From Kiritimatiellales bacterium (GTDB lineage Bacteria > Verrucomicrobiota > Kiritimatiellia > Kiritimatiellales > Pontiellaceae), in assembly GCA_003246265.1 (NCBI GenBank), contig QKAU01000056.1, forward strand, positions 1 to 64,000: DNA of 64,000 nt, read 5' to 3'. The notes beneath the pieces were generated by a model, which saw only the letters and a program-made list of their open reading frames with translations, was not told the origin of the DNA and did no database searches. Each line of letters starts with the position of its first letter. The stretch's first letter is position 1. A program made the translations under genes and the position numbers. Positions 1 through 14,479 of this stretch are shown one piece after another.

Positions 1-760
1 CACCCGAGTCCGGAAAGCCGGCTACGACGGGGTGGAACTCGCCCTCCCGCTCCACGACGCCCGGAGAACCGCGCATATCGTCGATACCCTGCAGGAGTTC
101 GGGCTCAAATTGATCGGCCAACACTGGGAAACAACCGATCCCGACATCGACAACCACATCGGGCGCTACCGGAAGCGGATCGAGTGGCAGGCCGCGGCCA
201 ACCCGCTGTTCGTCAATTCGCAGACCGGGCTCGACTGGTTCCCCTTCGAAGCGAACCAGCGCATCATCGATGCGGCCCGGGCGGTTTCCGAAAAGACGGG
301 CGTTCGCATCGTACACGAGACCCACCGGGGAAAACTCACCTTCTGCGCCGCCCAGACCCGCCGCTTCCTGGAAGCCAACCCCGAGATGCGCCTGGCTGCC
401 GACTTCTCGCACTGGTGCAACGTCTCCGAATCGCTCCTGGCCGACCAGCATGAATCCGTATCGTCTGCGATTGCCCGGGCCGACCACATCCACGCCCGCG
501 TCGGGCATCCGGAAGGTCCGCAGATTTCAGACCCGCGCGCCCCCGAATGGCAGGAGGCGCTCCATGCCCACCTCGCATGGTGGGACTCCATCGTCGAGAC
601 CCGGAGGGGCGATGGAACCGGGCTGCTCACCATCACGGCCGAGTTCGGACCGCCGACCTACATGCCGACGCTGCCCTACACCCGGCAGCCTGTCTCCGAC
701 CAGTGGGAAATCAACGTCCACATGATGAACCTTCTGAAGGCGCGCTACGCCCAACCATGA
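1..760 (+). CDS. Sugar phosphate isomerase/epimerase-like TIM-barrel protein (5' end outside window)
   Basis: The reading frame is open from the first bases of the window, so the start codon lies upstream; about 252 residues are present. The product looks like an AP-endonuclease-2/xylose-isomerase-like TIM barrel, a fold that isomerises or epimerises sugars using a divalent metal held by Glu, Asp, His and Glu. Matching candidates are visible in order: the Glu of HETHRG, the Asp of AADFSHW, the His of HIHARVGH and the Glu of TAEFGPP. An internal GTG at position 32 could be mistaken for the start, but the in-frame residues before it (KAGYDGVE) match the usual N-terminal strand of the family. 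The stop codon is 17 bases before the desaturase start, which suggests co-transcription. The substrate is unknown; the context suggests a modified sugar. Confidence 0.8.
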   Translation, partial: TRVRKAGYDGVELALPLHDARRTAHIVDTLQEFGLKLIGQHWETTDPDIDNHIGRYRKRIEWQAAANPLFVNSQTGLDWFPFEANQRIIDAARAVSEKTGVRIVHETHRGKLTFCAAQTRRFLEANPEMRLAADFSHWCNVSESLLADQHESVSSAIARADHIHARVGHPEGPQISDPRAPEWQEALHAHLAWWDSIVETRRGDGTGLLTITAEFGPPTYMPTLPYTRQPVSDQWEINVHMMNLLKARYAQP

Positions 761-777
761 CCGAGAGGAGATGCCCC

Positions 778-1788
778 ATGACCCGGCTAGTTGAAAGAAA
801 AGTGGAATGGTACCGGACCCCTATCGACAAGGAGGTGAAGAAGGAACTGATGCAGCGCAGCGACCTGCGCGGCTTCCTCCAGATCATCCCGCAGTTGCTG
901 CTATCGGTCGCTACCGCAACCTTCGTCGTCTATGCCTATCACACGCTCGCCTGGCCGTTCCTGATCGTGGCCCTGTTCATCCACGGCACCGGCTTCACCT
1001 TCGTTGGCGAGCACGCCGCCATCCACGAGCTGTCGCACGGCACGGTGTTCAAGACCAAGGGACTGAACGAGTTCTTCCTCCGGCTTTGCGGATTCATCAC
1101 CTGGAAGAATGTCATCCTCTACCGGGAAAGCCACATCCGGCACCATATGGCCACGGTGCACGGCGACCAGGATCTCGAGGTGCCCCTGCCCTACCATCTC
1201 ACCCTGTGGAACTGGGTACAGTACTACACCTTCGATTTTTCCCGTTTCAAGGCCTGCGCCTGGATGATCATCCGCCACAGCTTCGGCATCCTGTCCGGCG
1301 AGTGGGAACACTTCCTGTTCCCCGAATCCGACCCCAAGGCGCGCAAACGGCTTTTCAACTATGCGCGCTTCGTGCTGGCCGGGCAGCTGCTGATCGCCGC
1401 GGCCATCGTCTATTTCAAGGCATGGATCTTCCTGGCGATCTTCACCTTCCCCTTCTACGCCACCTGGCTCGCATGGCTCGTCACGATCCCCCAGCATGCC
1501 GGACTGACGCCCAACAGCAACGATTTCCGCATCTGCTGCCGGTCGGTCAAGGTGGATCCCTTCACCCTCTTCATGCATTGGAAGATGGACTACCACGTGG
1601 AGCACCACATGCACGCGGGCGTCCCCTTCTACAACCTGCCGAAGCTCCGGCAGGCGATCGGTTACGACCTGCCGCCCATGGACCCCTTCATGAAGACCTG
1701 GAAGGAAATCCGCAGCACCCTGAAGCGGCAGAAGAGCGATCCCTCCTACTGCCACGTGCCGCAGCTCCCTAGCGCCGCGCAAAGCTAG
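778..1788 (+). CDS. Membrane di-iron fatty-acid-desaturase-family oxygenase (MocD-like candidate)
   Basis: A 336-residue membrane protein with the three histidine boxes that bind two irons in this superfamily: H83-ELS-H87, H119-IR-HH123 and H273-VE-HH277, plus an extra QHAG at 238-241. Hydrophobic segments at about 35-75 and 195-235 frame the boxes. The family uses O2 and electrons from a ferredoxin to desaturate, hydroxylate or O-demethylate. The start is the second of two ATGs (778), preceded by GAGAGGAG. It follows a sugar isomerase and precedes a second desaturase-Rieske fusion, and no lipid-synthesis genes lie nearby, so I favour a sugar-directed oxygenase like MocD of rhizopine breakdown over a lipid desaturase. 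That assignment is inference. Its 3' end overlaps the convergent AraC gene by 20 bases. Confidence 0.8.
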   Translation: MTRLVERKVEWYRTPIDKEVKKELMQRSDLRGFLQIIPQLLLSVATATFVVYAYHTLAWPFLIVALFIHGTGFTFVGEHAAIHELSHGTVFKTKGLNEFFLRLCGFITWKNVILYRESHIRHHMATVHGDQDLEVPLPYHLTLWNWVQYYTFDFSRFKACAWMIIRHSFGILSGEWEHFLFPESDPKARKRLFNYARFVLAGQLLIAAAIVYFKAWIFLAIFTFPFYATWLAWLVTIPQHAGLTPNSNDFRICCRSVKVDPFTLFMHWKMDYHVEHHMHAGVPFYNLPKLRQAIGYDLPPMDPFMKTWKEIRSTLKRQKSDPSYCHVPQLPSAAQS

Positions 1789-2575
1789 AGGGCGCAACGC
1801 CCCGGTGCTTTTTGTAGGCGCGCGAGAAATAGAGCGGATCCTCGAAGCCGCACGACGCGGCGATGCGCCCCATGCGCCAGTCGGGATGGGCTTGCATCAG
1901 GCGGTCGGCAAGCTCCAGCCGCTGGAACAACTGGTAGCGTTTGAAGCCGATGCCCATCATCGAAGAGAAGAGGTGCGAAAGGCGCGATGGACTCAGCCCG
2001 ACAAACCGTGCAGCCCCGGACAGCGTGAGCACCTCGGCCGGATCGGTGCGCATTCTTTCGATGAGCGGATTGAGCTGGTCGAAGTCACGCCGCCCGACGA
2101 GGGCATGGTTGGCGATGTGGTGGATCAGCACTTCGAACATGCTAAGCAGGTCGTCGACCTTTTCACGCGTGAACTCGGGCAGTTGTTCCACCGCCGCCTG
2201 CTCCCTTGGATTGCGGATTTCCACCTTGTTCCCGGCAAGGCGGAACTGGCCGATCATGGCGTATCCGATCGGCACGCCGCCGACCAGCACCGGCACCACC
2301 GCCTCGCACAATCCCGCATGGCATTGGTAGAAATGGACTCCGCCCTTTTCCAATGAAGCCTTGCGCCCCCCGTCGTCGTCCGCCAGGCAGGCCGCGTTGA
2401 AGGCCCCCGCGCGGCGTCGCATGGCGCAATAGCCGCAGATGCTGCGGTTCTTGCCGATGCACAACTCCTCCCCATCCATCGAAAAGAAGGCGATGCGCAC
2501 CTCGGTCAGCGAGGTGAAGTGGTCGAGCAGGTTGAGCATTTCGCGGCTGAAGATGTACTCCATGTTTCCGATCAT
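1769..2575 (-). CDS. AraC-family regulator with N-terminal PocR sensory domain
   Basis: The 268-residue protein starts with a cysteine-rich PocR-type domain (about 5-165; Cys clusters ICGYC, ACLADD and QCHAGLC), a domain predicted to bind small organic ligands and possibly a metal. A double helix-turn-helix of the AraC type fills about 170-268 (LTLSGAARFVGLSPSRLSHL, then IAASCGFEDPLYFSRAYKK). Two ATGs are in frame at 2581 and 2575. I chose 2575 because AAAGGA lies 8 bases before it but only 1-2 bases before 2581. It is divergent from the UroD-like gene, with a shared intergenic region carrying a 21-bp-spaced direct repeat that could be its operator. PocR/AraC proteins often control neighbouring catabolic genes. 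The ligand is unknown. Confidence 0.88.
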   Translation of the reverse strand: MIGNMEYIFSREMLNLLDHFTSLTEVRIAFFSMDGEELCIGKNRSICGYCAMRRRAGAFNAACLADDDGGRKASLEKGGVHFYQCHAGLCEAVVPVLVGGVPIGYAMIGQFRLAGNKVEIRNPREQAAVEQLPEFTREKVDDLLSMFEVLIHHIANHALVGRRDFDQLNPLIERMRTDPAEVLTLSGAARFVGLSPSRLSHLFSSMMGIGFKRYQLFQRLELADRLMQAHPDWRMGRIAASCGFEDPLYFSRAYKKHRGVAPSSFARR

Positions 2576-2593
2576 GGACATCCTTTATCACGA

Positions 2594-2620
2594 TATAGCT
2601 AAATTGTCCATGTTTATAGC
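2594..2620 (+). promoter_or_regulatory. Direct repeat TATAGC(t)AAAT with 21-bp spacing, candidate AraC operator
   Basis: TATAGCTAAAT begins at 2594 and TATAGCAAAT at 2615, exactly two helical turns apart in the same orientation. AraC-type proteins typically bind such half-site pairs. The repeat lies between the divergent AraC/PocR gene and the UroD-like gene, upstream of a possible -10 (TACCTT, 2655-2660) of the latter. Regulator assignment is inferred from position. Confidence 0.5.
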
Positions 2621-2691
2621 AAATGCCTCTATGGCCAGGTCCACCGATCCGTCCTACCTTGTTGCGCGGGTGTGAACGCAGGAGAGCAATC

Positions 2692-3744
2692 ATGACGAAA
2701 CGCGAAGTGGTACGAATGGTCCTCAACGGCGAAAAGCCGCCCTATGTCCCGTGGTCCTATAAATTCACGATGGAGGCCGAACATGCGCTCAAGGAACACC
2801 TCGGATGCGAGGACCTCGAACGGACCGTCGGCAACCATATCGTCCGCGTCGGCAGCGATATCGGGTTTTTCGAGGATATCGGCAACGACCGGTTGCGCGA
2901 CGTGTTTGGCGTCGTCTGGGACCGCAGCGTCGACAAGGACATCGGCGTGGTGGAAAACTGCCTGATTCCGGAGCCGACCATGGAGGGATTCCGCTTCCCC
3001 GACCCGCTCGACCACCGCTTCTTCGACAACATCGAACCCAAGCTGGCGGAGTACGCCGACTGTTTCCGCGTCTTTGAACTGGGCTTCTCCCTTTATGAGC
3101 GCGCCTGGACCCTGCGCGGCATGGAGAACCTGATGATCGACATGATCGAAGAGCCGGAGTTCGTGCACGACCTGCTGGCGGCCATCGCCGACTACAACCT
3201 CGCCCAGGTGGAAGAGGCCCTCAAGTACGACATCGACGCCGTCTACTTCGGCGACGACTGGGGCCAGCAGCATGGGCTCATCATGGGTCCGGACCGGTGG
3301 CGGGAGTTCATCCTGCCGCAGCTCCGGCGGATGTACGGCAAGGTGCGCGCAGCCGGCAGGTTCGTGATGATCCACTCCTGCGGCGATGTCGACGAATTGT
3401 TCGACGACCTGGTCGACGCGGGCCTGAACAGCTTCAATCCGTTCCAGCCCGAGGTGATGGACATCCACGCCATCCTGCCGGCCTATCGTGGCCGCCTCGC
3501 CTTCCACGGCGGGTTGAGCATGCAGAAGACCCTGCCGTTCGGCACGGTCGAGGAGGTCCGCAGGGAGTCGCGCGACCTGCTTCGGCTGGGAGCCGACGGC
3601 GGCTACATCTTTTCGCCTTCGCACTCGGTGGAGAGCGACACGACCGTCGAAAACATGGTTGCCTTCATCGAAGAGGCCTTCGCGCAGGAGGGATACCAGG
3701 CGCTTCATCCCGGGGATGGACTGAAGCTGCCCGCAACGGCGTAG
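2692..3744 (+). CDS. Uroporphyrinogen-decarboxylase-superfamily (UroD-like) methyltransferase
   Basis: A 350-residue protein of the UroD fold, with a start at 2692 preceded by AGGAGAG. In this superfamily true HemE makes coproporphyrinogen, but most members beside regulators and catabolic genes are cobalamin-dependent methyltransferases such as MtaA. Here HSCG (about residue 225) and the SPSHS segment near the C-terminus occupy positions where MtaA-type enzymes bind zinc with His and Cys. The PRP/GRQAGR-type N-terminal substrate motif of HemE is not seen; the N-terminus reads PPYVPWSYK. No corrinoid protein or other haem gene is adjacent. It sits between a PocR/AraC gene and a desaturase-Rieske gene, suggesting handling of methyl groups from a methylated carbon source. 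That role is inferred. Confidence 0.75.
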   Translation: MTKREVVRMVLNGEKPPYVPWSYKFTMEAEHALKEHLGCEDLERTVGNHIVRVGSDIGFFEDIGNDRLRDVFGVVWDRSVDKDIGVVENCLIPEPTMEGFRFPDPLDHRFFDNIEPKLAEYADCFRVFELGFSLYERAWTLRGMENLMIDMIEEPEFVHDLLAAIADYNLAQVEEALKYDIDAVYFGDDWGQQHGLIMGPDRWREFILPQLRRMYGKVRAAGRFVMIHSCGDVDELFDDLVDAGLNSFNPFQPEVMDIHAILPAYRGRLAFHGGLSMQKTLPFGTVEEVRRESRDLLRLGADGGYIFSPSHSVESDTTVENMVAFIEEAFAQEGYQALHPGDGLKLPATA

Positions 3745-3803
3745 GGCCATAGGGGGTGCGGTGGCGCAGCCAGGGGAAAAGGCTGTTCAACAGGAGACCT
3801 ACC

Positions 3804-5219
3804 ATGACAAACCCCCTAGACCTGATCATTGAAGAAGAGTGGTACAAGCCGGAGATCGACCGGAGCGTGTTCAAGGCGCTCATGCAGAAGGACGACGTCC
3901 ACGGCATCGCCAACACGGCGCTGTGGATCGGATCGTTGCTGGCCAGCGGATACCTCGCCTGGCTGGCGATTCCCCACGGCCTGTTTTTTTCCGTACCGGC
4001 GTTCCTGCTCTACGGCATCTTCTACTGCGCCTGCGACGCGCGCTGGCACGAGAGCTCGCACCACACGGTCTTCAAGACGCACTGGATGAACGTCGCGCTG
4101 AACTTCCTCTCCACCGCCATGCAGCAGCGCGACATCGTTTTCACGGCTTGGTCGCATGCGCGGCACCACTCCTACACGATTATCACGGAGGTCGACCCCG
4201 AGATCACGGTGACCCGCCCGCCCAAATTCTGGCCGCACTTCCTCGATTTCTTCAGCCTCAAGGAGGCCACCTACTACTATCCCATCCTCATTCTCCACAG
4301 CCTCGGCATCCCGAGCAAGGCGGCCAGGGAGTTCGTGCCCGAGGAGGAGTACGGGAAGATGTTCTGGTGGGCACGCGCCTCGTTCGCCCTGAACGCCGTG
4401 CCGGTGGGCTTCGCCATCGCCTGCCATACGTGGCTGCCGCTGCTCTACTTCATCGGGCCGAAGTTCTACGCCAACTTCGTCCAGCGCGCCTTCATCCTCG
4501 CGCAGCACGCGGGAATGGATGAAAACGTCTGGGACCACCGGGCCAATTCCCGGACCATCAGGGTGAACCCGCTCCTGGGCTTCCTCTACATGAACATGCA
4601 GTACCACATCGAGCACCACATGCATCCCCTGATGCCCTTCCATGCGCTGCCCAAGTTCCATGAGCGCGTAAAGGACCAGCTCCCGGAACCCTACAAGGGG
4701 CTTTGGGCGGTCTACAGGGAGATGCTTCCCGCACTGGGGAAGCAGGCCAAGGACACGAGCTACTGCATCCAGCGGGCGGTGCACGGCCAGGTGCCCCCCC
4801 GCCGCGCCGTGCGCCGCAAGGACAGGGCCGCCGAAGAAATCGCTACCGGGCACGCCGCGCAGTGCGAAACCGCGGGGCGGGAACTGGTGTGGCACCCCGT
4901 ACTCGGCGCCGATGAACTGGGGGTCAACGACTCGATGGATGTGGTGGTCGATGATGCGCACTACGCCGTATACCAGCTTGAAGCCGGAGACTACCGGGCC
5001 ACCGAAGGGGTCTGCACCCACGAATTCGCGCTGCTGGCCGACGGGGTGCTCCAGGATGGCTGCATCTCCTGCCCCAAGCACAACGCAAAGTACGACATCT
5101 GCTCCGGCAAGGTGCTTTCGCGCCCCGGCAAGCGCGACCTGCTGACCTTCCCCGTGAAGCTGGAGCGCGGCAAGCTCTTCCTCGGACTGGCCCGGAAAGA
5201 CGAGCCGCACTTGCCCTGA
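3804..5219 (+). CDS. Desaturase-family di-iron oxygenase fused to a C-terminal Rieske ferredoxin domain
   Basis: A 471-residue fusion. Residues about 1-330 form a membrane desaturase domain with histidine boxes H82-ESS-HH87, H118-AR-HH122 and QYHIEHH near 270; an extra QHAG matches the neighbouring desaturase. After a basic linker (about 330-360) comes a Rieske-type [2Fe-2S] domain with C404-x-H406 and C423-xx-H426. Together these would supply oxygen activation and its immediate electron donor in one chain. In rhizopine catabolism the same two activities are separate proteins, MocD and MocE, which with a reductase (MocF) remove an O-methyl group. No reductase is found in the window. The start at 3804 follows CAGGAGA. 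O-demethylation of a sugar is my favoured but unproven reading; lipid or carotenoid hydroxylation is the alternative. Confidence 0.82.
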   Translation: MTNPLDLIIEEEWYKPEIDRSVFKALMQKDDVHGIANTALWIGSLLASGYLAWLAIPHGLFFSVPAFLLYGIFYCACDARWHESSHHTVFKTHWMNVALNFLSTAMQQRDIVFTAWSHARHHSYTIITEVDPEITVTRPPKFWPHFLDFFSLKEATYYYPILILHSLGIPSKAAREFVPEEEYGKMFWWARASFALNAVPVGFAIACHTWLPLLYFIGPKFYANFVQRAFILAQHAGMDENVWDHRANSRTIRVNPLLGFLYMNMQYHIEHHMHPLMPFHALPKFHERVKDQLPEPYKGLWAVYREMLPALGKQAKDTSYCIQRAVHGQVPPRRAVRRKDRAAEEIATGHAAQCETAGRELVWHPVLGADELGVNDSMDVVVDDAHYAVYQLEAGDYRATEGVCTHEFALLADGVLQDGCISCPKHNAKYDICSGKVLSRPGKRDLLTFPVKLERGKLFLGLARKDEPHLP

Positions 5220-5301
5220 CGCGCGCACCTTGCGGTCGGCTGGGAAACCGGCGACGGACAACACTCGCCATCCCATGTTGCATGGGGTATTCTGGTCCGC
5301 C

Positions 5302-6450
5302 ATGAGTACCCTTCCCGAAACCTACGAGGTCAGCGTCCTGGTCAACACCTCCCTGCAATGGGGACGGGACATCGTTTCGGGCGCCTTGGACTACGCCTAT
5401 GAAATGGGTCCATGGTACGTCAGGGTCTACCCCAACCACCCCGCCAACGCCATGCAGCTTCCCGCCGGATTCCGCGCGGATGGCGTGATTGCCAATGTCA
5501 ACTCTCCCGAGATGGCACAGGCCCTCGCGGACTATGGCGCCCCGGTCGTCAACGTGGCCGACCATACGGTCGAGGGCATCGCCGCCCCGAGCATACGCAC
5601 CGACGACAATGTTTCGACGCGGATGGCGGTCGACCACTTTATCGAGCGCGGATTCCGGAGGCTCGCCTTCGTGGGCCCGCGACACACCCCGAACCCGATA
5701 TGGTACGCGAAGGTCTTCCGTCAAACGGCGGAAAAGGAGGGACTGCCCCACGCGGAATTCACCGTGCATGACAACTACCGGGACCAGATCGACGAGCTGG
5801 TTCCCTGGCTCAGGTCGCTGCCGAAGCCCATCGGGATCCTGGTGTGGGGACTGGGCGTGGCCCAGGTGGTGGTGGATTGCTGCATGCGGGCGGATATCCC
5901 CGTCCCGCACGATGTGGCGGTCCTATGCGGAAGCTATGACGAAGTACTGTCGCACGCCTGCTTCCCCGCCCTCTCAGGCATCCTCATCCCCACCCGGAAG
6001 ATCGGCCATACCGCCGCCCAGACCCTGCACCGCATCATGAGGGGGGAAAAGATCCCCGCGAAAACAACCTACATTCCCCCGCTCGGCATCCGCGAGCACC
6101 TTTCCACCGACACGATCAAGGTCGAGGATGGCCACATGCTCAAGGCCATCAAGTTTATCCGGGAACACGCCTATGAGCCATTCCTGATCGACGACATCCT
6201 GCGCCATGTCCCGATGACCCGCCGCTCCCTCGAACGCCGGTTCCGCCAAACCTTCGGCCACTCCATCGGCGACGAGATCAAGCGCCTGCGGATCGGCAAG
6301 GCCCGCCAGCTCCTGGTCCAGACCGACCTGCACATGCAGGAGATCGCCGAAGCCTGCGGCTATGCCACCTACAACCATCTCACTTCCGTCTTCAAAAAGA
6401 CGACCGGCATGAGCCCGCGCGACTACCGCAAGCAGCAAGGCGGTTCCTAG
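5302..6450 (+). CDS. XylR-like regulator: LacI-type sugar-binding domain with C-terminal AraC HTH
   Basis: The protein (382 residues from 5302) lacks an N-terminal DNA-binding domain. Residues about 8-265 resemble a periplasmic-binding/LacI-type sensor (for example GADGVI-like and RRLAFVGPRH segments), and about 270-380 are an AraC-type double helix-turn-helix ending in a typical SPRDYRK. This is the architecture of XylR of xylose catabolism and of many PVC glycan loci. It probably senses a monosaccharide released by the adjacent fucosidase/GH43 set and activates those genes. The ATG at 5302 is favoured because homologues usually start just before the sensor's first strand (YEVSVLV); an ATG at 5275 is possible. 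No strong ribosome-binding site is visible for either. Confidence 0.85.
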   Translation: MSTLPETYEVSVLVNTSLQWGRDIVSGALDYAYEMGPWYVRVYPNHPANAMQLPAGFRADGVIANVNSPEMAQALADYGAPVVNVADHTVEGIAAPSIRTDDNVSTRMAVDHFIERGFRRLAFVGPRHTPNPIWYAKVFRQTAEKEGLPHAEFTVHDNYRDQIDELVPWLRSLPKPIGILVWGLGVAQVVVDCCMRADIPVPHDVAVLCGSYDEVLSHACFPALSGILIPTRKIGHTAAQTLHRIMRGEKIPAKTTYIPPLGIREHLSTDTIKVEDGHMLKAIKFIREHAYEPFLIDDILRHVPMTRRSLERRFRQTFGHSIGDEIKRLRIGKARQLLVQTDLHMQEIAEACGYATYNHLTSVFKKTTGMSPRDYRKQQGGS

Positions 6451-6650
6451 ACCGGACCAGCGCCGCGGAAGCGATCCGGAGGAAGCCAGTGGCATCCTTT
6501 CCGGGTACCGTTCTTGAACGCAGGCAGCCCCACCCCTGGCCGGGGCTTGTACGTTCCGCACTGGCCTTTAGGATGGGCCGGGCAGGCTTGCATAGCCCCC
6601 GCATCCGGTGGGATGCTGTACGGCGTAATCATGCGAAGGAGGAAGGCGAG

Positions 6651-8132
6651 ATGCGGAGATGCATTGCACAGGGGCTGGTCGCGGCGACAGCCATGGTGGT
6701 GGCAACAGGCTGGGCGGAGGACTTCCGATACCAGCCCGACTGGGACTCCATCCGGAGCCGCTACGAGGTGCCGGCCTGGTTCCGCGATGCCAAGTTCGGC
6801 ATCTTCATCCATTGGGGCCCCTATGCCGTCCCGGCCTACATGTCGGAAAAGTATCCGCCCGGCATCTACGATCCCAACTGGAACAAGGGCGGCATGAACG
6901 CGTACGCCTACCACCGCAAGCACTATGGCGATCCGTCGGAATTCGGCTACAAGGACTTCATCCCGATGTTCAAGGCCGAAAGGTTCGATGCCGCGGCATG
7001 GGCCCGGCTCTTCAAGGATGCCGGCGCCCGCTACGTCGTCCCCGTGGCCGAACACCACGACGGATTCGCCATGTACCATTCGCACCATACCCGCTGGAAC
7101 GTGGTCGACATGGGGCCGAAGAAGGACACCCTGCGCCTGCTCGCCGACGCCTGCCGCGCCGAAGGACTGAAATTCGGCGCCTCCTCGCACTTCGCCCTCA
7201 ACCGCATCTACTACAGGACCGACGATCCGGATTGGGACACCAACGATCCGCAATATGCCGACCTCTACTGGAAGCCCGTCGACAAGGACTCCCCGCCGGA
7301 ACCGGAGTTTCTCGACCTGTGGTGGCGGCGAACCACCGAAATCATCGACCAGTACGAGCCCGACCTGCTCTGGTTCGACTACGGCCTCGACAAGCCCGGC
7401 TGGGAGCCGGTCCACAAGAGGATTCTCGCCTACTACTACAACAAGGGCCTCGACTGGGGGAAAGAGGTGGTCTTCCAGGACAAGAACATGAGGCACGAAT
7501 CCTTCCCCGAAGACCTCATCGTCCTCGACATCGAACGCGGCCGCATGGCGGACATCAACCCCCGCCCGTGGCAGACGGACACCTCCGTCGGGAAAATCTC
7601 GTGGGGCTACATCGAAAACGAGGACTACAAGAGTTCCGACTACCTCGTCGACGAACTCATCGACATCGTCAGCAAGAACGGCTGCCTGCTGCTCAACATC
7701 GGACCGAAGGCCGACGGCACCATCCCGGATGAAGCCCAGGCAATCCTCCGCGACATCGGCGCATGGCTCCGGGTCAACGGCGAGGCGGTCTACGGTACGC
7801 GCCCATGGAAGATCTTCGGCGAAGGCCCAACCAAGGTGGCGACGGGCCACCATTCCGAAAAGGAAAACACGGACCATGTTTCGGCCGACATCCGCTTCAC
7901 GACGCGGGACGACGTGCTCTACGCCATCGCGCTCGCCTGGCCGAAGGACGGCCGGTTCAACATCCGCTCGCTGGCCAGGGGCAACCCGCACGAATCCCGC
8001 CCGGTCAAGGCGGTGGAATTCATCAGCGGTCGAAGTCCCGTCCGCTGGAAGCAGACGGCGGACGGGTTGGCATTGTCGGTCGAGGGAAAACCTCCCTGCG
8101 AAGCCGCCTATGTTTTCAGGATCCGTTTCTGA
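6651..8132 (+). CDS. Secreted GH29 alpha-L-fucosidase
   Basis: A 493-residue enzyme with a signal peptide (1-22, cleavage near GWA-ED). The GH29 catalytic TIM barrel is recognised by FGIFIHWGPYAVPAY, the EHHDGFAMY segment and LLWFDYGLD, whose Asp243 fits the position of the catalytic nucleophile in retaining fucosidases. A C-terminal beta domain follows (about 370-493). It would cleave terminal alpha-L-fucose from glycans in the periplasm or outside the cell. The start at 6651 is preceded by GGAGGAAGG. It heads the row of degradative genes after the XylR-like regulator, followed by two sulfatases and two GH43 enzymes, consistent with breakdown of a sulfated fucose-containing polysaccharide. 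The acid/base residue cannot be assigned with certainty by eye. Confidence 0.93.
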   Translation: MRRCIAQGLVAATAMVVATGWAEDFRYQPDWDSIRSRYEVPAWFRDAKFGIFIHWGPYAVPAYMSEKYPPGIYDPNWNKGGMNAYAYHRKHYGDPSEFGYKDFIPMFKAERFDAAAWARLFKDAGARYVVPVAEHHDGFAMYHSHHTRWNVVDMGPKKDTLRLLADACRAEGLKFGASSHFALNRIYYRTDDPDWDTNDPQYADLYWKPVDKDSPPEPEFLDLWWRRTTEIIDQYEPDLLWFDYGLDKPGWEPVHKRILAYYYNKGLDWGKEVVFQDKNMRHESFPEDLIVLDIERGRMADINPRPWQTDTSVGKISWGYIENEDYKSSDYLVDELIDIVSKNGCLLLNIGPKADGTIPDEAQAILRDIGAWLRVNGEAVYGTRPWKIFGEGPTKVATGHHSEKENTDHVSADIRFTTRDDVLYAIALAWPKDGRFNIRSLARGNPHESRPVKAVEFISGRSPVRWKQTADGLALSVEGKPPCEAAYVFRIRF

Positions 8133-8167
8133 CGGCGGCAGGCGCACCGCCCATCCTGTCCGTACTC

Positions 8168-8197
8168 CATATGTTTTTCACGCAATCGCATATTACG
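8168..8197 (+). promoter_or_regulatory. Conserved 30-bp element upstream of the first sulfatase
   Basis: Positions 8168-8197 match 12502-12531, upstream of the second sulfatase, at 22 of 30 bases when aligned without gaps. Shared blocks include CATAT, a T-run ending in C, CG.AAT and CAT.T. It lies 50 bases or more before the start codon, just upstream of a candidate -10 (TACGTT, 8216-8221). A binding site for the XylR-like regulator is a reasonable inference. Confidence 0.45.
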
Positions 8198-8246
8198 GGT
8201 GGGCATGGATCTGCTACGTTTGCTGCACCATCAACGGAGCCCAGTC

Positions 8247-9770
8247 ATGAAACTCATGGTAATCCTCGCCCTTGCCGCATCGGGTATCGCCCTCGCCGCC
8301 CCGGCGGCCGAACAGCCGAACATCATCTGGATCATGGCCGAAGACATGGGGCCCGACCTCGCCTGCTACGGCATGGCCGGCGTGAAGACGCCGAACCTCG
8401 ACCGAATGGCCCGGAAGGGAATGAAATTCACCCGGGCCTACTGCGCCAACCCGATCTGCTCGCCCAGCCGCTCCTCCATGATGGTCGGTGTGCACCAGAC
8501 CGTCATCAACGCCCAGCACCACCGCAGCAACCGCGACATTCCGCTGATGGCCCCCTACAAACCCTTCACCTACTGGCTGCGCCAGGCCGGCTACACCTGC
8601 ATCCTCGGCAGCGACCTGGTGATGGGCAGGGGACGCAAGATCGACTGCAACTTCAAGTACGAGGAGACCGGCCCCTATGACGGGGTTTCGCAGTTCGGCC
8701 TCTTCGACAAGCTCGACACCTTCACGAGGGACGACCAGCCCTTCTTCAGCCAAATCCAATGCGTGGTCACGCACCGCGGCGACTGGTGGAACGAGGTGCG
8801 CCGGGAATCGAAGCATCCGGTTTCCGTCGATGCCATCGAGCTGCCGCCCTGGTTCGCCGACACGCCGGAGATCCGCTACGACTGGGCGGCCTATTGCGAC
8901 ACGATCGAATACATGGACGACGAGGTCGGACAGATCCTGAAGCGGGTGGATGAGATGGGGATCGCAACCAACACCTACGTGGTCTTCATCGCCGACAACG
9001 GCCGGTGCAACCTGCGCGGCAAGGGCTACCTGCAGGACACCGGCATCCATGTGCCGATGATCGTCCGCGGCCCCGGCATCCAGGCTGGTACCGTGGTGGA
9101 AGATCTCGTCTGCATGACCGACATCACCGCCACCATCCTCGCTCTCGCCGGCGCCGAATTGCCGGACTACCTCGACGGACATCCGGTGTTCGGGATCGCG
9201 AACCCGCAGTACCGCGAATATGTCCGCTCCGCGCGCGACATCTGGGACGAGATCGACGAATGCTCGCGCAGCATCACCACCAGGCGGTTCGCCTATATCA
9301 AGAACCACATGCCCGAAGTGCCGTGGGACGCCCACCAGGCCTATCTCGACCTGAACCGCCCGGCCATCCACGTCATGCGCCGCCTCAAGGCGGAGGGGAA
9401 GCTCTCTGCCGACCAGCTGGTCTTCATGGCCGAATCCAAGCCGCCCGAAGAGCTCTACGACCTGGAGAAGGATCCCTTCCAGATGAACAATCTTGCCGGG
9501 AATCCGGAATATGCGGAAGTGCTGGAAAAGATGCGCGGCCTTGAAGCACAATGGCAGTCCGGACATCCCGACATGGGACTTGCCGACCTGGGGAAGCGCA
9601 TCCCGGAGATGACCAGGGCCTGGGCCGCCCAGACCGAAACGGGCGTTAAGGAGCAGGCTCCGGAACTATGGGCCAGGCTCGAGGCCGGCGAGCTGATGGA
9701 GACCCATCAGTGGAAGAAATACCGTGCCGACCAGCGCAGGCCGGAAAAAAAGGCTGCTACTGGAAAATAG
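8247..9770 (+). CDS. Exported S1-family sulfatase with CSPSR formylglycine motif
   Basis: A 507-residue protein with a signal peptide (1-21). The sulfatase core has PNIIWIMAEDMG (first metal-binding acidic pair) and C71-SPSR75, the sequence in which Cys is oxidised to formylglycine by a maturase. FIADNGR supplies the later Asp-Asn metal ligands, and LYDLEKDPFQMNNLA closes the family domain. It would hydrolyse a sulfate ester on a sugar. No formylglycine-generating enzyme or anaerobic maturase is in the window, so one must be elsewhere. It lies 114 bases after the fucosidase and carries an upstream element shared with the second sulfatase. Sulfate position and sugar cannot be deduced; its subfamily is unassigned. 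Confidence 0.93.
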   Translation: MKLMVILALAASGIALAAPAAEQPNIIWIMAEDMGPDLACYGMAGVKTPNLDRMARKGMKFTRAYCANPICSPSRSSMMVGVHQTVINAQHHRSNRDIPLMAPYKPFTYWLRQAGYTCILGSDLVMGRGRKIDCNFKYEETGPYDGVSQFGLFDKLDTFTRDDQPFFSQIQCVVTHRGDWWNEVRRESKHPVSVDAIELPPWFADTPEIRYDWAAYCDTIEYMDDEVGQILKRVDEMGIATNTYVVFIADNGRCNLRGKGYLQDTGIHVPMIVRGPGIQAGTVVEDLVCMTDITATILALAGAELPDYLDGHPVFGIANPQYREYVRSARDIWDEIDECSRSITTRRFAYIKNHMPEVPWDAHQAYLDLNRPAIHVMRRLKAEGKLSADQLVFMAESKPPEELYDLEKDPFQMNNLAGNPEYAEVLEKMRGLEAQWQSGHPDMGLADLGKRIPEMTRAWAAQTETGVKEQAPELWARLEAGELMETHQWKKYRADQRRPEKKAATGK

Positions 9771-9836
9771 CGGACACCACCGGCCCCGCTGCGGAAATTC
9801 CAAGGAACCTGCATTCCCTTGGACCGCGTTCCTTGC

Positions 9837-9842
9837 TATCCT
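9837..9842 (+). promoter_or_regulatory. Candidate extended -10 (TGC-TATCCT) before the GH43 pair
   Basis: TATCCT preceded by TGC lies about 40 bases before the start of the first GH43 gene. Similar TAnnnT hexamers precede several other genes in this window. No good -35 is visible. Confidence 0.35.
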
Positions 9843-9880
9843 CCCGGCAGACTGATCCTATTGTAGCCGAGGGGGGGGCG

Positions 9881-10837
9881 ATGAAGGCCAGAGACATCCT
9901 GCTGATCACGGCGCTGGCGGCGAATGCGCCGGCCCGGAATCCGTTCATCACGCATATCTACACGGCCGACCCTTCGGCCCGGGTGTTCGGCGACGTGCTC
10001 TACGTCTACCCGAGTCACGACCGCGACCATGCCCAGTGGTGGGACATGGAGGACTACCACGTCTTCAGCACCACTAACATGGTGCACTGGACGGATCACG
10101 GCAGGGCGCTGGACATCGCCGACATCCCATGGGCGCAAAAGCATGCCTGGGCCCCCGACTGCATGGAGCGCGATGGCAGATACTACTTCTACTTCCCCAC
10201 TGACCAGGCCCATATCGGCGTTGCGGTCGGAGGCACGCCGTGGGGCCCGTTCAAGGATGCCCTGGGGAAACCGCTGCTCTCCAAGCATTCGGAAGGCGTG
10301 GTGTGCCGTCGCGATTTCATCGATCCCTGCGTATTCATCGACAACGACGGGCAGGCCTACCTCTTCGCCGGGCAGCTCGACCTCAATGCCGTCAAGCTTG
10401 GCCGCGACATGGTTTCGATCGATGGTCCGGTGCGGCAGATCGAAGGGCTCGACCATTTCTTCGAAGCCGCATGGATCCATGTGCGTGAAGGAAGATATTA
10501 CCTTTCCTATTCCGGGCAGGGAAGGATCCTCTATGCCGTGTCGGACCAGGTGCTGGGCCCCTACGAGTTCAAGGGGACGATCCTGGGCAAGGTCAATAGC
10601 GGCACGAACCACCATTCCATCGTAAAGTACAAGGGGCGCTGGTACCTCTTCTACCACACCGCCGACCTCTCGATGCAGCGGAATCCCAAGGGCTCCCCGG
10701 AGGCGAAGTACAGCCAGTGGCGCCGGTCGATCTGCGTGGACGAACTTGCCTACCACGAGGACGGGAGCATCCAGGAAGTGGTGCCGACATTGGAAGGCGT
10801 TGCTCCCGCCGCCGCGCCAGCGGATCTCGCACCATGA
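9881..10837 (+). CDS. GH43-family glycoside hydrolase, single domain
   Basis: A 318-residue five-bladed beta-propeller glycosidase. The GH43 acid triad is visible: Asp in IYTADPSARVF (general base), Asp in RRDFIDPCVFID (pKa modulator) and Glu in HFFEAAWIH (general acid). The family removes arabinofuranose, xylose or galactose units. The N-terminus (MKARDILLITALAANAPAR) could be a weak signal peptide, but cleavage is unclear. The start at 9881 is preceded by GAGGGGGGGGCG, where a run of eight Gs acts as the ribosome-binding site. Its stop overlaps the start of the next GH43 gene as ATGA, so the two are translationally coupled. Substrate is not predictable by eye. Confidence 0.87.
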   Translation: MKARDILLITALAANAPARNPFITHIYTADPSARVFGDVLYVYPSHDRDHAQWWDMEDYHVFSTTNMVHWTDHGRALDIADIPWAQKHAWAPDCMERDGRYYFYFPTDQAHIGVAVGGTPWGPFKDALGKPLLSKHSEGVVCRRDFIDPCVFIDNDGQAYLFAGQLDLNAVKLGRDMVSIDGPVRQIEGLDHFFEAAWIHVREGRYYLSYSGQGRILYAVSDQVLGPYEFKGTILGKVNSGTNHHSIVKYKGRWYLFYHTADLSMQRNPKGSPEAKYSQWRRSICVDELAYHEDGSIQEVVPTLEGVAPAAAPADLAP

Positions 10838-12480
10838 AGATGCTCCTCGCCGCATTGATGCTCGCCGCAGCCGGTGCCTTCGGCACCTTCGCCGGAACCT
10901 ATACCAATCCAATCGTCACGGCCGACTTTTCTGATCCCGACGTGGTCCGGGTCGGTGACGACTTCTACATGACCGCCTCAAGCTTCAACATGGTGCCGGG
11001 GCTGCCCATCCTGCACTCGCGCAACCTGGTTGACTGGCGGCTGGTCGGGCATGGGCTTCGTCACCTTCCACCCATTCCTGAACCCACCCCGCGGCGGAGC
11101 GGGAACGAACTGGACTACGACCTCCCCCGCCCCGGTTGCGGCGTCTATGCCCCCAGCATCCGCTTTCACGACGGCTGGTTCTGGATATTCTGGGGAGATC
11201 CCGATGCCGGCATCTACATGACCAGGGCGCGCAACGCCGCCGGACCTTGGTCCGAGCCGCATCTGGTCCATCCCGGGCAGGGCCTGATCGACACCACGCC
11301 TTTGTGGGACGATACCGCGGGCAAGGCCTATCTCGCCCACGCATACGCCCACTCGCGCAGCGGGATCAACGGGCGGATCGTGGTGCATGAGATGGCCTGG
11401 GACGGATCCCGGCTCATCGGAGCCCCCGCAACGGTGTTCGATGCTTCCAAGCCCGAGCGGTTCCCCTCCGACCGCCATCATTCCGTGATCGAAGGAGCCA
11501 AGTTCATGCAAAGGGATGGGTGGTACTATCTGCTCTGTCCCGCCGGTGGCGTCGCGTTCGGGTGGCAGACCGCCCTGCGCGCCAGAAGCCCCATGGGCCC
11601 CTACGAAATCCGGACGATCTGCGCCCGGGGGAGCACGGATGTCAACGGCCCCCATCAAGGAGCCCTAGTGGACACGCCTCAAGGCAGCTGGTGGTTCGTC
11701 CATTTTCAGGATGTCGGTACGCTGGGCCGGATTACCTGGTTGCAGCCGGCCCGGTGGGAAGATGCATGGCCCGTCATTGGCGAGGATCCGGATGGCGATG
11801 GGACTGGACAACCCGTCCATCTGGCTCCACTTCCGGTCGACCTGCGCGAGCCCCTGTCGCCAACGCTCGGTTCCGACAGCTTCAACGGACCGGAAATCGG
11901 CCTGCAGTGGCAATGGCCTGCAAACCCGAAACCCGGCTACAGCCTGCTTGAGGATGGGATACTCCGACTGCCCGCCCATCCGGTGCCGGACGGCCGTCTG
12001 GAATGCGCACCCCACGTGCTCACCCAGATGTTTCCCGGCTACTGCTTTGCCGCAACCGCGAAAGTGGAACTCGATTCCACGAATCCCTCGGTATATGGAG
12101 GTCTGGCCGCCATGGGCCGGACGTGCTCGGATATCGCCATCCACAGGCTTGGCGAAGGGCTCGAGGCCCGTGTCCGTATCAAAGGTGCTCCCACAGCCAT
12201 CGCCTCGCTGCCGGCCGGTTCCATCTGGCTCAGGTTGGAAGCCGAAGGCGAACTCCCGCTTCCCTACTCCGGCAAGAATGGGCAAATCGCCTGCCGCTTC
12301 GCCTACAGCACCAACGGGAGGAATTTTGTGCCACTGGGCGAAACCTTCCATGCCAGGGCGGGAACATGGATCGGGGCGCGCGTCGGCCTTTTCTGCTCCG
12401 GCGCGGACCCGCAAGCTGGCAGTCTCAAGGTAGACGATCTGGATATGGCTGTGGAGGATCGTACAGGAAGGGGCCTATAG
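10834..12480 (+). CDS. Secreted GH43 glycosidase with C-terminal concanavalin-like domain
   Basis: A 548-residue protein with a signal peptide (1-20). Residues about 22-320 form a GH43 propeller: Asp in DFSDPDVV (base), Asp in LIDTTPLWDD and Glu in HSVIEGAKF (acid). About 345-540 resemble the beta-sandwich of the beta-xylosidase C-terminal domain (FNGPEIGLQWQW onward). This two-domain form is typical of beta-xylosidases and alpha-L-arabinofuranosidases related to GH43 subfamily 12. Its start overlaps the upstream GH43 stop (ATGA). The signal peptide suggests that it acts in the periplasm or outside, perhaps before the shorter partner. Exact sugar specificity is open. Confidence 0.9.
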   Translation: MKMLLAALMLAAAGAFGTFAGTYTNPIVTADFSDPDVVRVGDDFYMTASSFNMVPGLPILHSRNLVDWRLVGHGLRHLPPIPEPTPRRSGNELDYDLPRPGCGVYAPSIRFHDGWFWIFWGDPDAGIYMTRARNAAGPWSEPHLVHPGQGLIDTTPLWDDTAGKAYLAHAYAHSRSGINGRIVVHEMAWDGSRLIGAPATVFDASKPERFPSDRHHSVIEGAKFMQRDGWYYLLCPAGGVAFGWQTALRARSPMGPYEIRTICARGSTDVNGPHQGALVDTPQGSWWFVHFQDVGTLGRITWLQPARWEDAWPVIGEDPDGDGTGQPVHLAPLPVDLREPLSPTLGSDSFNGPEIGLQWQWPANPKPGYSLLEDGILRLPAHPVPDGRLECAPHVLTQMFPGYCFAATAKVELDSTNPSVYGGLAAMGRTCSDIAIHRLGEGLEARVRIKGAPTAIASLPAGSIWLRLEAEGELPLPYSGKNGQIACRFAYSTNGRNFVPLGETFHARAGTWIGARVGLFCSGADPQAGSLKVDDLDMAVEDRTGRGL

Positions 12481-12501
12481 ACGGGTCGCCTGACGGATTT
12501 A

Positions 12502-12531
12502 CATATTTTTTTCGCGGAATTCCATGTAGCG
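12502..12531 (+). promoter_or_regulatory. Conserved 30-bp element upstream of the second sulfatase
   Basis: This segment aligns without gaps to 8168-8197 at 22 of 30 positions, and both lie ahead of sulfatase genes. It includes an EcoRI-like palindrome GGAATTCC at 12516-12523 not fully kept in the other copy. A similar GCGGAAATTCCA occurs at 9790-9801 before the GH43 pair. Possible operator of the locus regulator. Confidence 0.45.
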
Positions 12532-12596
12532 CCCGAGCACCGAAAAGCCTTCAATGCAAAGGCGTCCCGGAAGCACTGGCGCAGGAGAATGAAGCC

Positions 12597-14051
12597 ATGA
12601 TTAGAAGATGTGCAGCTTGGACAGCCGCATTGCTCAGCGGCCTGGCTTGCGTGGCGGGCAACGCCGCTGTTGGCGGGCGCGCTGGAAACCCCAACCTCAT
12701 CCTGTTTGTTGCCGACGACCATGGCACCGATGCCCTTGGGTGCTACGGGAATCCGGTCATCCAGACACCGAACCTGGACCGCCTCGCCGCGGAAGGCGTG
12801 CGCTTTACCCGCGCCTACTGCACCAGCGCCAGCTGTGCCGCCAGCCGGTCGGTGATCCTTACCGGCCTCTATGGCCACGCGACCGGCTCGTACGGGCACA
12901 CCCACGACTACCATCACTTCAGCACCTACGACACCGTAAAGTCGCTCCCCGTCCTCCTCGAGGCGGCGGGCTACCATACCGCACGCATCGGCAAGTACCA
13001 CCTTGCACCCGACTCGGTCTACCACTTCCAAACCGTCCTGCAGGCCGACCCGCGCAGCACGATTGAAATGGCCGACGCCTGCGCAGGCGTGCTCGGACAG
13101 GACAAGCCCTTCTTCCTCTACTTCTGCACCGACGATCCCCACAGAGGCCACCCCTTCACCCCCGATCCGTGGAATGCACCGAATCCGTTCGGCAACAAGC
13201 CCGAACCCTATCCGGGCGAAAAGCAGGTCAAGTACGACCCGGGAGAGGTCGTCGTTCCACCATTCCTTCCCGACACCCGCGAGTGCCGGGAAGAGCTGGC
13301 CCAGTACTACCAATCCGTTTCCCGCATAGACCAGGGCTTTGGCCGGCTGATGCACCTTCTGGAAAAGTCCGGCAAGACGGACAACACCGTCGTCATCTAC
13401 ATCTCCGACAACGGCATCGCCTTTCCCGGCGCCAAGACCACCCTCTACGAACCGGGAATCCGTCTCCCCTGCATCGTCAAGGATCCACGCACTTCCTTGA
13501 ACGGACACGTCAACGACTGCATGGTCTCGTGGGTCGACCTGGCCCCCACCATCCTTGATCTCGCCGGCGTCGAATTCGACCCCAAGGCATTCCAGGGCCG
13601 TTCCTTCCGGCTTGTTCTCGACAAGGTCTTCGTCGACGGCTGGGATACCATCCACGCGTCGCACACGTTCCACGAAATCACCATGTACTACCCCATGCGC
13701 GTTGTCCGCCAAGGCGACCTCAAGCTCATCTGGAACATAGCGTACCAGCTGCCCTACCCCTTCGCTTCCGACCTGTGGGCCGCCTCCACCTGGCAAAGCA
13801 TCTACCGCGGCAAGGGGGAATGGTTTGGGAAGCGGAAGGTCCAGGACTACCTCCACCATCCGGAATTCGAACTCTACGACCTTGCTGCGGACCCGGATGA
13901 AACCCGCAATCTTGCGCTGGATGAGAAGTATGCCGAGACGCTGGACCACATGAAAAGGCAGCTCAAGGACTTCCAGCTCGAAACCAAGGATCCGTGGCAG
14001 ATCATGTGGAGCCACGAATCCGAGGTACAGGGAACTGGCGTAAACCTGTAG
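12597..14051 (+). CDS. Exported S1-family sulfatase with CAASR formylglycine motif
   Basis: A 484-residue protein with a signal peptide (1-24). NLILFVADDHGTD carries the first metal ligands, and the modification motif is C80-AASR84, the alanine-containing variant accepted by formylglycine-forming enzymes and common in heparan N-sulfatase-like S1 proteins. YISDNG provides the later metal ligands, and FELYDLAADPDETRNLA marks the C-terminal subdomain. The start at 12597 has CAGGAGAA upstream. It differs clearly from the CSPSR sulfatase 2 kb upstream, so the two probably attack different sulfate positions. The maturase is not encoded here. Resemblance to N-sulfoglucosamine sulfohydrolases is by motif only. 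Confidence 0.93.
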   Translation: MIRRCAAWTAALLSGLACVAGNAAVGGRAGNPNLILFVADDHGTDALGCYGNPVIQTPNLDRLAAEGVRFTRAYCTSASCAASRSVILTGLYGHATGSYGHTHDYHHFSTYDTVKSLPVLLEAAGYHTARIGKYHLAPDSVYHFQTVLQADPRSTIEMADACAGVLGQDKPFFLYFCTDDPHRGHPFTPDPWNAPNPFGNKPEPYPGEKQVKYDPGEVVVPPFLPDTRECREELAQYYQSVSRIDQGFGRLMHLLEKSGKTDNTVVIYISDNGIAFPGAKTTLYEPGIRLPCIVKDPRTSLNGHVNDCMVSWVDLAPTILDLAGVEFDPKAFQGRSFRLVLDKVFVDGWDTIHASHTFHEITMYYPMRVVRQGDLKLIWNIAYQLPYPFASDLWAASTWQSIYRGKGEWFGKRKVQDYLHHPEFELYDLAADPDETRNLALDEKYAETLDHMKRQLKDFQLETKDPWQIMWSHESEVQGTGVNL

Positions 14052-14241
14052 CCCGGAATGGGTGTAGCAACGCCTTGATCATACGCGGCGCGCCTGCCAT
14101 ACCGGACTCGGTTCGGCATGAAATAGTTGTCCCGTAGGCCTATTTCCCCGAATCCGGAAACAGCAGATTCACCCATCCGAAGTCGTGCCTTACAAACCCA
14201 TTCAATAGGCCGGGCATATACGGCCCCAGATTATTTGCGAG

Positions 14242-14303
14242 TGGTGCCGGAGGTGGGACTCGAACCCAGAATCCCGTGCGTCTACCAATTTCGCCACTCC
14301 GGC
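14242..14303 (-). pseudogene. tRNA-Leu with anticodon arm half and variable arm deleted
   Basis: Read on the minus strand, the 7-bp acceptor stem GCCGGAG/CTCCGGC is perfect and followed by ACCA. The D-arm (GCGAAATTGGTAGACGC) is leucine-type with its 3-bp stem, and the T-loop TTCGAGT sits on a mostly paired stem. After the 5' half of the anticodon stem (CGGGA) and two loop bases, the sequence jumps straight to the T-arm. The anticodon, the 3' half of that stem and the long variable arm (about 24 nt) are missing. The gene is therefore about 61 nt instead of about 85 and cannot decode. Either it is a genuine pseudogene or an assembly deletion. Confidence 0.75.
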
Positions 14304-14323
14304 CCGGGTGGGGAAAGAGTCGG

Positions 14324-14351: not shown

Positions 14352-14479
14352 CTGCTTTTCATGGCGGGGCGGCGGGGTGCATGCAACTGTGCGCAGCCCT
14401 TTCCCCGACAGGCCGCACGAACCATGCACCCGCTGCTCCCGGCGGTACCGCATGTACGGCGAAGGTTGACTGCAGAGGG

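Follow-up and report, generated by a model that had tools for sequence, protein, structure and literature searches.

Many glycans of algae and plants are capped by O-methylated sugars. For taking the methyl ether off such a sugar monomer, we know of only one proven route, that of a cytochrome P450. As described in PMC10033563, this P450 demethylase of Zobellia and Formosa performs the oxidative O-demethylation of 6-O-methyl-D-galactose together with a ferredoxin and a reductase. Two other systems serve as references here: the MocDEF oxygenase of rhizopine (3-O-methyl-scyllo-inosamine) and the corrinoid O-demethylases of acetogens. The latter belong to the UroD superfamily and take methoxylated aromatics as substrates, according to PMC13222342. 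The described Pontiella species are oxygen-intolerant (PMC7356697, PMC10880615), which makes an oxygenase in Pontiellaceae an odd find.

The window analyzed here is a stretch of 64,000 nucleotides opening contig QKAU01000056.1 of a Kiritimatiellales bacterium from this family, a marine organism that seems to live on algal sugars and in whose genome cytochrome bd is present. As the contig starts at window base 1, the first gene, coding for a TIM barrel, lacks its 5' end (Table 1). An earlier note, made from the sequence alone, had described two desaturase-fold oxygenases sharing a QHAG motif, one of them with its own Rieske domain, next to PocR/AraC and XylR-like regulators and away from lipid genes. 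All of this held: both oxygenases are open frames at the places given, with a Pfam FA_desaturase domain (99.1 bits for desat1 and 107.7 bits for desat2, cut-off 29.7); the motif lies at 1492-1503 and 4503-4514; the C-terminal part of desat2 matches the Pfam Rieske domain at 56.6 bits; Pfam confirmed the domains of both regulators; and the eleven window proteins scanned with Pfam, between 2 and 14051, include no lipid gene. Two labels stood only in part: the supposed sugar isomerase is a xylose-isomerase-like TIM barrel and only putatively an isomerase, and the “UroD-superfamily methyltransferase” does carry the URO-D domain, with only a distant likeness to MtaA/CmuA (mtaA_cmuA model 68.9 bits, cut-off 235.4; hemE model 21.0 bits, also below cut-off). 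Further along the window, Pfam confirmed a fucosidase, two sulfatases, and two GH43 genes; no cytochrome P450 domain was found in seven Pfam-scanned window proteins, nor any Rfam family in window 1-16000. One has to keep in mind that our simple gene-calling script drops some genes in GC-rich DNA, the window's TIM barrel among them.

Table 1. Features of the oxygenase/URO-D region, in window coordinates.
Feature	Position	Strand	Evidence
Xylose-isomerase-like TIM-barrel gene, 5' end missing	2..760	+	Pfam AP_endonuc_2 34.7 bits
desat1, MocD-like membrane di-iron oxygenase without Rieske domain, 336 aa	778..1788	+	Open frame, Pfam, tree
PocR sensory domain + AraC-type HTH regulator	1769..2581	-	Pfam PocR 84.5 bits, HTH_18 62.8 bits
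31-bp conserved intergenic element, candidate operator/promoter of the URO-D/MocDE operon	2604..2634	+	
URO-D superfamily protein, candidate corrinoid methyltransferase I	2692..3744	+	Pfam URO-D 84.4 bits
desat2, MocD-MocE fusion: membrane di-iron oxygenase + Rieske ferredoxin domain, 471 aa	3804..5219	+	
Rieske [2Fe-2S] motif CxH..CxxH in desat2	5013..5081	+	
XylR-like regulator: periplasmic-binding-type domain + AraC HTH	about 5302..6450	+	Pfam

Four other Pontiellaceae genomes share the core of the locus (desat2 76-79%, URO-D 87-89%), and the conserved unit is only the PocR/AraC regulator, the URO-D protein, and MocDE. The same core is present in the strain Pontiella sulfatireligans F21. 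The regulator gene is divergent from the URO-D gene, and desat2 starts 59 bp past the latter. The 31-bp element occurs as one copy per genome in seven of the eleven Pontiellaceae genomes searched (up to three mismatches), always beside the URO-D ortholog, with 0 matches for the reversed-pattern control; URO-D and MocDE have this one element and one PocR-type regulator in common. No XylR-like gene was found directly beside any of the four orthologous cores, and this regulator is probably part of the glycan gene set after it in the window and not of the conserved core. The earlier note had tied the module to the fucosidase/sulfatase run, a claim that is weakened: at the four orthologous cores, the run is not adjacent as it is here, and GH29 genes are little above background near MocD-like genes (within 3 kb of at least 2/30, 0.99 expected; within 6 kb of at least 5/30, 1.95 expected, with the window accounting for two of the five; within 10 kb of at least 5/30, 3.15 expected), with 1 to 88 GH29 matches per genome across ten genomes. 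The window's own link of the MocDE module to the fucosidase and sulfatases is weak.

Alignment and phylogeny indicate that desat2 is a MocD-MocE fusion, in keeping with the kinship to rhizopine catabolism put forward before. Indeed, its alignment with the neighboring mocD and mocE of rhizobia runs from one end to the other (residues 12-465), at about 35-43% (full-length rows among the matches listed), and its oxygenase domain clusters with the MocD of a rhizopine-type cluster (bootstrap/SH-aLRT 97/93), apart from acyl-CoA desaturases; neither a grouping with lipid desaturases nor a recurrence with lipid genes, the outcomes named beforehand as contrary to the proposal, was seen for this protein. 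On the MocE model TIGR02377, its Rieske domain scores 60.0 bits, below the curated cut-off of 136.15, and the stand-alone MocE of locus L173 scores 178.1 bits. In a PDB structural search (best 50 rows), the fused domain matched Rieske proteins, and the oxygenase domain reached E<0.001 only for subunits of two chloroplast FtsHi motor complexes (rmsd 7.7-10.2); this search does not separate MocD-like from desaturase subfamilies. No MocF-type reductase was found beside desat2 among the eleven Pfam-scanned window proteins, and five Pontiellaceae genomes plus one further genome gave no match (E<=1e-10) to the reductase that adjoins gammaproteobacterial fusions.

For desat1, the proposed relation to MocD holds for the motifs they have in common and not for a firm placement: it forms a Pontiellaceae clade of its own, which joins divergent, long-branched plasmid “fatty acid desaturases” at 92/66, and its position is only tentative. 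Outgroups were plasmid and own-genome desaturases, with no characterized Delta-12, carotenoid, or AlkB enzymes; some rows of the first tree had very long branches, and in the second L178 and L183 were removed, rows thinned, and outgroups added, some again long-branched. The trees had their Caldilineaceae and Burkholderiaceae rows thinned and two fragments omitted. No PDB sequence matched desat1. Its gene begins 17 bp past the TIM-barrel gene, whose product is 52% identical to L143_8; members of this TIM-barrel family lie directly beside MocD-like genes at L143, L148, L150, L152 (after), and L171 (before).

The association of URO-D with MocD-like genes extends well beyond the window. We retained 30 MocD-like genes from 32 distinct places, G009:C120 and G011:C1:4024384 being dropped because they matched only the oxygenase end and the Rieske part, and compared them with 101 URO-D genes (110 matches minus nine HemE genes). 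A URO-D gene lies within 3 kb of 15/30 MocD-like genes, for 0.41 expected; without desat1 and the four desat2 orthologs, the count is 10/25, for 0.34 expected. In the recurrence check that the earlier note had asked for, the family does recur with sugar genes: MocD-like genes stand beside sugar or inositol genes in rhizobia, Burkholderia, Acidiphilium, Verrucomicrobiota, and Pontiellaceae, and one lies close to an agarase in Pseudocolwellia. A verrucomicrobial survey (20 loci, from 19 of 34 genomes with a match; 109/116 near and 109/117 far genes scanned, leaving out short, contig-end, and very long frames, the near Rieske protein L157_3 being one of the genes left out) gave a MocD-Rieske-reductase triple fusion at 19 of the 20 loci. 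One same-strand run of mostly overlapping Pontiellaceae genes reads URO-D/MocD/MocE/GH120/GH120/GH67, which points to 4-O-methylglucuronate as the substrate at that locus. Demethylation of 4-O-methyl-D-glucuronate is not evident among the papers listed in one literature search; among those listed in the literature searches as a whole, no pathway is described for such a gene set, as the earlier note had supposed, bar the P450 6-O-methylgalactose route (PMC10033563).

The URO-D protein of the window retains the HxC motif, with His instead of Cys at the usual third metal-ligand position. Within the module of the window itself, no corrinoid protein was found; a small, free-standing one is encoded at C37 of the same genome with a RACo activator adjoining (L185), and the genome's corrinoid locus comprises these two, a sodium symporter, a rhamnose mutarotase, two URO-Ds, CobW, and a membrane hydroxylase of a different kind. 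At locus L136, the ortholog of the window's URO-D sits inside the corrinoid locus itself, among cluster mates of URO-D/thioredoxin, CobW, and homocysteine methyltransferase proteins, and two genomes have the PocR+URO-D pair without an adjoining MocDE (L134, L135). Membership in a second, corrinoid route, missed by the earlier note, is the best reading of the window's URO-D gene.

We propose, with a probability of roughly 0.55, that MocDE and URO-D would carry out a co-regulated O2-dependent and O2-independent demethylation of one methylated sugar. The sequence itself establishes the families, the fusion, the gene order, the common intergenic element, and the association of URO-D with MocD. The core consists of three genes, the PocR/AraC regulator and an operon of the URO-D protein and the MocD-MocE fusion; the regulator would detect the substrate and switch on URO-D and MocDE from one promoter. 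In what we infer for the chemistry, the substrate, and the split by oxygen, the MocD domain, receiving electrons via the fusion's own Rieske cluster, would use its membrane di-iron centre to hydroxylate a small methylated sugar or sugar acid at the O-methyl group, and the resulting hemiacetal would break into the free sugar and formaldehyde; without oxygen, URO-D would act as methyltransferase I, with the cell's single small, free-standing corrinoid protein as acceptor of the same methyl. A second, related pair would be formed by the TIM barrel and desat1. Points against the proposal are that no reductase was found among the scanned window proteins, that the Rieske domain stays below the MocE cut-off, that a distant MocD relative lies among N-methyl genes, and that an oxygenase is odd in a group with oxygen-intolerant species, though cytochrome bd is present. 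HemF and HemN are an oxygen-dependent/oxygen-independent enzyme pair, and a bolder, more tentative reading is that Pontiellaceae may hold matched demethylases for one methylated sugar (O2-dependent MocDE and O2-independent corrinoid URO-D), both controlled by one PocR-type regulator; this would be another HemF/HemN-like pair and bring the first corrinoid O-demethylases for sugars.

The oxygenase might instead act on methylated sugars while URO-D performs another step, such as a later decarboxylation or isomerization, with no parallel demethylation. The distance of URO-D from known methyltransferases (68.9 bits for a cut-off of 235.4), its His at the third metal-ligand position, and a module without a detected corrinoid protein would fit; the L136 ortholog among corrinoid-type cluster mates argues against it, and PocR+URO-D pairs free of MocDE are compatible with an independent route. 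We consider this account rather unlikely. Less likely again is that the oxygenase takes off a different group, N-methyl for example, or that its target is a carbon in a non-sugar metabolite (e.g., a betaine), which it would hydroxylate: a distant MocD-like gene of Ruegeria does lie among sarcosine oxidase and trimethylamine methyltransferase genes, and a Marinomonas homolog among apparently non-carbohydrate genes (judged by eye), but many neighborhoods are of the sugar or inositol kind, from those of rhizobia to that of Pseudocolwellia near its agarase.

Ordinary acyl-lipid or acyl-CoA desaturases lying by chance near glycan genes would agree with the Pfam name FA_desaturase and with the weak joining of desat1 to the plasmid enzymes (92/66). 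Three His boxes and a QHxG motif are present in each of desat1 and desat2; however, the boxes differ (HxEHH here vs. HNNHH in acyl-CoA desaturases), the QHxG motif is common to MocD and one other plasmid desaturase (L179), desat2 has its Rieske fusion, and no lipid gene is among the scanned window proteins. Neither protein shows the HxxxxH, HxxHH, HNNHH set of acyl-CoA (Delta-9) desaturases or groups with them, and the nearest desaturase model, NCBIfam DesB, gives 37.5 bits for desat1, 38.1 for desat2, and 35.8 for the rhizopine-type MocD, with a cut-off of 500. Plain lipid desaturases were rejected on His-box motifs and tree; we regard this explanation as very improbable and, for desat2, as largely refuted.

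If true, the demethylation of one methylated sugar by MocDE and URO-D would account for several membrane oxygenases kept by oxygen-intolerant marine bacteria. The MocD-like family, whether free, Rieske-fused, or in Rieske-reductase triple fusions, would give a second oxidative route in several phyla, to which the URO-D partner would add an anaerobic one; the GH67 run offers a directly testable substrate, 4-O-methyl-D-glucuronate.

Compared with MocDEF, desat2 is homologous end to end to adjacent MocD and MocE, with the same His boxes and QHxG motif; it differs in being one polypeptide, in having no MocF reductase found beside it (eleven window proteins scanned), and in its URO-D partner, with inositol genes and the moc regulator not seen. 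Like MtvB, OdmB, and VdmB, acetogen enzymes of the UroD superfamily, the window protein has a URO-D domain, and a corrinoid protein, a RACo activator, and URO-D/thioredoxin occur elsewhere in the genome; unlike these enzymes, it stands in a sugar setting, with a rhamnose mutarotase, a sodium symporter, and an oxygenase in the neighborhood. The P450 demethylase is unrelated to desat2, a membrane di-iron enzyme; the reaction proposed for desat2 would resemble that of the P450, the oxidative O-demethylation of an algal methyl sugar.

The genes on which the earlier note built its proposal are present in the window where it had placed them (see table). This window spans the first 64 kb of a contig 120 kb long, in a genome of 3.0 Mb.

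Coordinates of the features discussed, by locus
Locus	Feature	Position	Strand
Window	TIM barrel, truncated by the contig start	2-760	
Window	desat1, MocD-like oxygenase without a Rieske domain	778-1788	+
Window	PocR/AraC regulator	1769-2581	-
Window	31-bp element	2604-2634	+
Window	URO-D gene	2692-3744	+
Window	desat2, MocD-MocE fusion (MocDE)	3804-5219	+
Window	ExbB/ExbD-like and TPR-like genes	15564-22264	-
L148	MocD-like gene, TIM barrel, glycyl radical enzyme	4170-10297	
L150	Same set as L148	9487-15685	
L173	R. leguminosarum A1 plasmid, mocDEF and following genes	9001-13417	
L178	Ruegeria plasmid, MocD-like pair	8953-10218	
L185	FA_hydroxylase membrane enzyme	12449-13438	

By Pfam, desat2 is an FA_desaturase protein with a Rieske domain at its C-terminus. 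In the best 60 of 385 matching plasmid records, residues 12-465 align at about 35-43% identity with adjacent gene pairs, mostly described, where annotated, as a fatty acid desaturase and a MocE ferredoxin; at least 80% of desat2 is covered in 270 of the 385 records, and the matching genes of R. etli CIAT 652 are named mocD, mocEa and mocFa. The HxEHH box is common to the MocD-like sequences, as is QHxG with few variants, whereas acyl-CoA desaturases carry HNNHH instead. Scores from the NCBIfam model DesB are 36-38 bits for desat1, desat2 and rhizopine-type MocD alike; hits to the guanitoxin hydroxylase model are listed for desat1 and MocD but not for desat2, and comparison of predicted structures (mean pLDDT 80 and 74) gave no separation of the subfamilies. 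In a tree of 63 sequences, desat2 falls in a 32-member group with rhizobial MocD proteins (support 97/93), next to fusions of Colwellia, Pseudocolwellia and Marinomonas (100/100); desat1 belongs to a Pontiellaceae-only group of 11 (100/99), joined at 92/66 on long branches, its placement being unsure.

The earlier note had proposed a sugar O-demethylation module, pointing among other things to the fucosidase, sulfatases and GH43 enzymes nearby. As a general case, the association of the MocD-like family with sugar genes holds well. The phylum search found matches in 34 of 387 genomes, with frames of 710-885 residues holding 31 of 40 among the matches listed; oxygenase, Rieske motif and reductase part share one protein in 19 of the 20 verrucomicrobial loci read (one of the 19 truncated), and in the one fusion scanned with Pfam the FA_desaturase, Rieske and NAD-binding domains were all confirmed. 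Pfam families were compared between 109 genes no more than three positions away from these oxygenases and 109 farther genes from the same loci. TIM barrels (6), AraC regulators (6), aldose 1-epimerases (5) and Gfo/Idh/MocA proteins (4) lead the near set, followed at two each by rhamnogalacturonan lyase, rhamnosidase, GH43, sulfatase, URO-D and others; methyltransferases (4) lead the farther set, where TIM barrels number 2 and none of the AraC, epimerase and Gfo families reaches the top 25. Elsewhere, a reductase gene and a fusion lie close to an agarase in Pseudocolwellia agarivorans, and inositol or sugar genes adjoin MocD-like genes in Acidiphilium, Burkholderia and rhizobia; other rhizobial copies are flanked by cob and nad genes. 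The family is not limited to sugars, since a distant MocD-like pair on a Ruegeria plasmid lies amid genes for sarcosine oxidase, a Rieske oxygenase and trimethylamine methyltransferase, which suggests an N-methyl branch. Tandem MocD-MocE fusions also occur in Caldilineaceae (Chloroflexota; L041 and others), with Gfo/Idh/MocA-like, TIM-barrel and SDR genes after them, families read by eye.

The local case, by contrast, is weak, because the regulator, URO-D and MocDE core is kept in four further genomes with differing flanks, and because GH29 proximity to MocD-like genes is close to background. A GH29 fucosidase or GH120/GH29 protein does lie one to four genes from a MocD-like gene in four Pontiellaceae loci (L142, L143, L144, L151). 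In another (L149), URO-D, MocD, MocE and a GH120-type gene form one same-strand run with overlaps of 1-4 bases, continued after 154 bp by a second GH120-type gene, a GH67 gene and a third GH120-type gene; GH67 enzymes free (4-O-methyl)glucuronate from xylan. In P. sulfatireligans, MocD-like and URO-D genes sit beside a rhamnose mutarotase and a symporter; PMC7356697 gives this species five GH139 2-O-methyl-fucosidases and P. desulfatans none. The ExbB/ExbD-like and TPR-like block (read by eye) that follows the window's glycan run keeps its order in L152, with a MocD-like fragment and a TIM barrel on its far side.

A recurrent partner is a non-HemE URO-D gene: in ten Pontiellaceae genomes, 15 of the 30 MocD-like genes have one within 3 kb against 0.41 expected, as do 10 of 25 against 0.34 once desat1 and the four desat2 orthologs are removed; both expectations come from random placing, which ignores operon structure, and paralogous clusters are non-independent. 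Such a gene lies within three genes in 14 of 22 Pontiellaceae loci, 1 of 20 verrucomicrobial loci and none of 37 from Gammaproteobacteria, Caldilineaceae and Burkholderiaceae, groups that may have few URO-D genes overall. MtvB, OdmB and VdmB, known corrinoid O-demethylases, belong to the UroD superfamily (PMC13222342). A small corrinoid protein occurs once in each of 11 genomes, except for one genome with two. The window genome's corrinoid locus holds a RACo activator, DUF1638, an AraC regulator, a sodium symporter, rhamnose mutarotase, URO-D, a fatty-acid-hydroxylase-type membrane enzyme, URO-D/thioredoxin and CobW, and no MocD-like gene; the membrane enzyme (L185) stands where P. sulfatireligans has a MocD-like gene. 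In the latter genome, two MocD-like genes have a similar set within 16 kb, and an ortholog of the window URO-D (86%) sits within the corrinoid locus of another genome (G001). The 31-bp element lies in the gap separating URO-D from the divergently oriented regulator gene and is conserved in seven loci, two of them without adjoining MocDE; allowing three mismatches, it occurs once in each of seven of the 11 genomes searched and nowhere else, the reversed pattern matching in none, which argues that URO-D and MocDE are probably under one switch.

We favour an account in which a MocD-type oxidative demethylase, used with oxygen, and a corrinoid demethylase, used without it, would act on the same methylated sugar. 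The described Pontiella strains are oxygen-intolerant yet have terminal oxidase genes, according to PMC7356697 and PMC10880615; cytochrome bd is present here, and the oxygenase may be used at low oxygen. In L148 and L150, a pyruvate-formate-lyase-like glycyl radical enzyme (assigned by Pfam in L148 and by shared protein cluster in L150), together with its likely activator, is encoded close to a MocD-like gene and a TIM barrel, once more placing oxygen-using and oxygen-sensitive enzymes near each other. Among the matches listed in a literature search covering neither bioRxiv preprints nor the majority of subscription papers, none joined MocD-like enzymes or URO-D methyltransferases to glycan sugars.

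Among the closest known systems is rhizopine catabolism, where the conversion of 3-O-methyl-scyllo-inosamine to scyllo-inosamine is ascribed to MocD in PMC2593844. The R. leguminosarum A1 order (substrate-binding protein, Gfo/Idh/MocA oxidoreductase, PLP-type regulator, desaturase, Rieske protein, FAD oxidoreductase) can be read as such a cluster. PanB-like genes also come after mocDEF in R. etli and Sinorhizobium, after mocDE, with a hydrolase gene between, in Marivivens, and in the vicinity of the MocD-like genes of L142 and L166; their products may capture the released one-carbon unit. In the A1 plasmid, the genes next after mocDEF are a PanB-like one and purU, which encodes formyl-tetrahydrofolate deformylase, a pair that would suit the processing of that unit.
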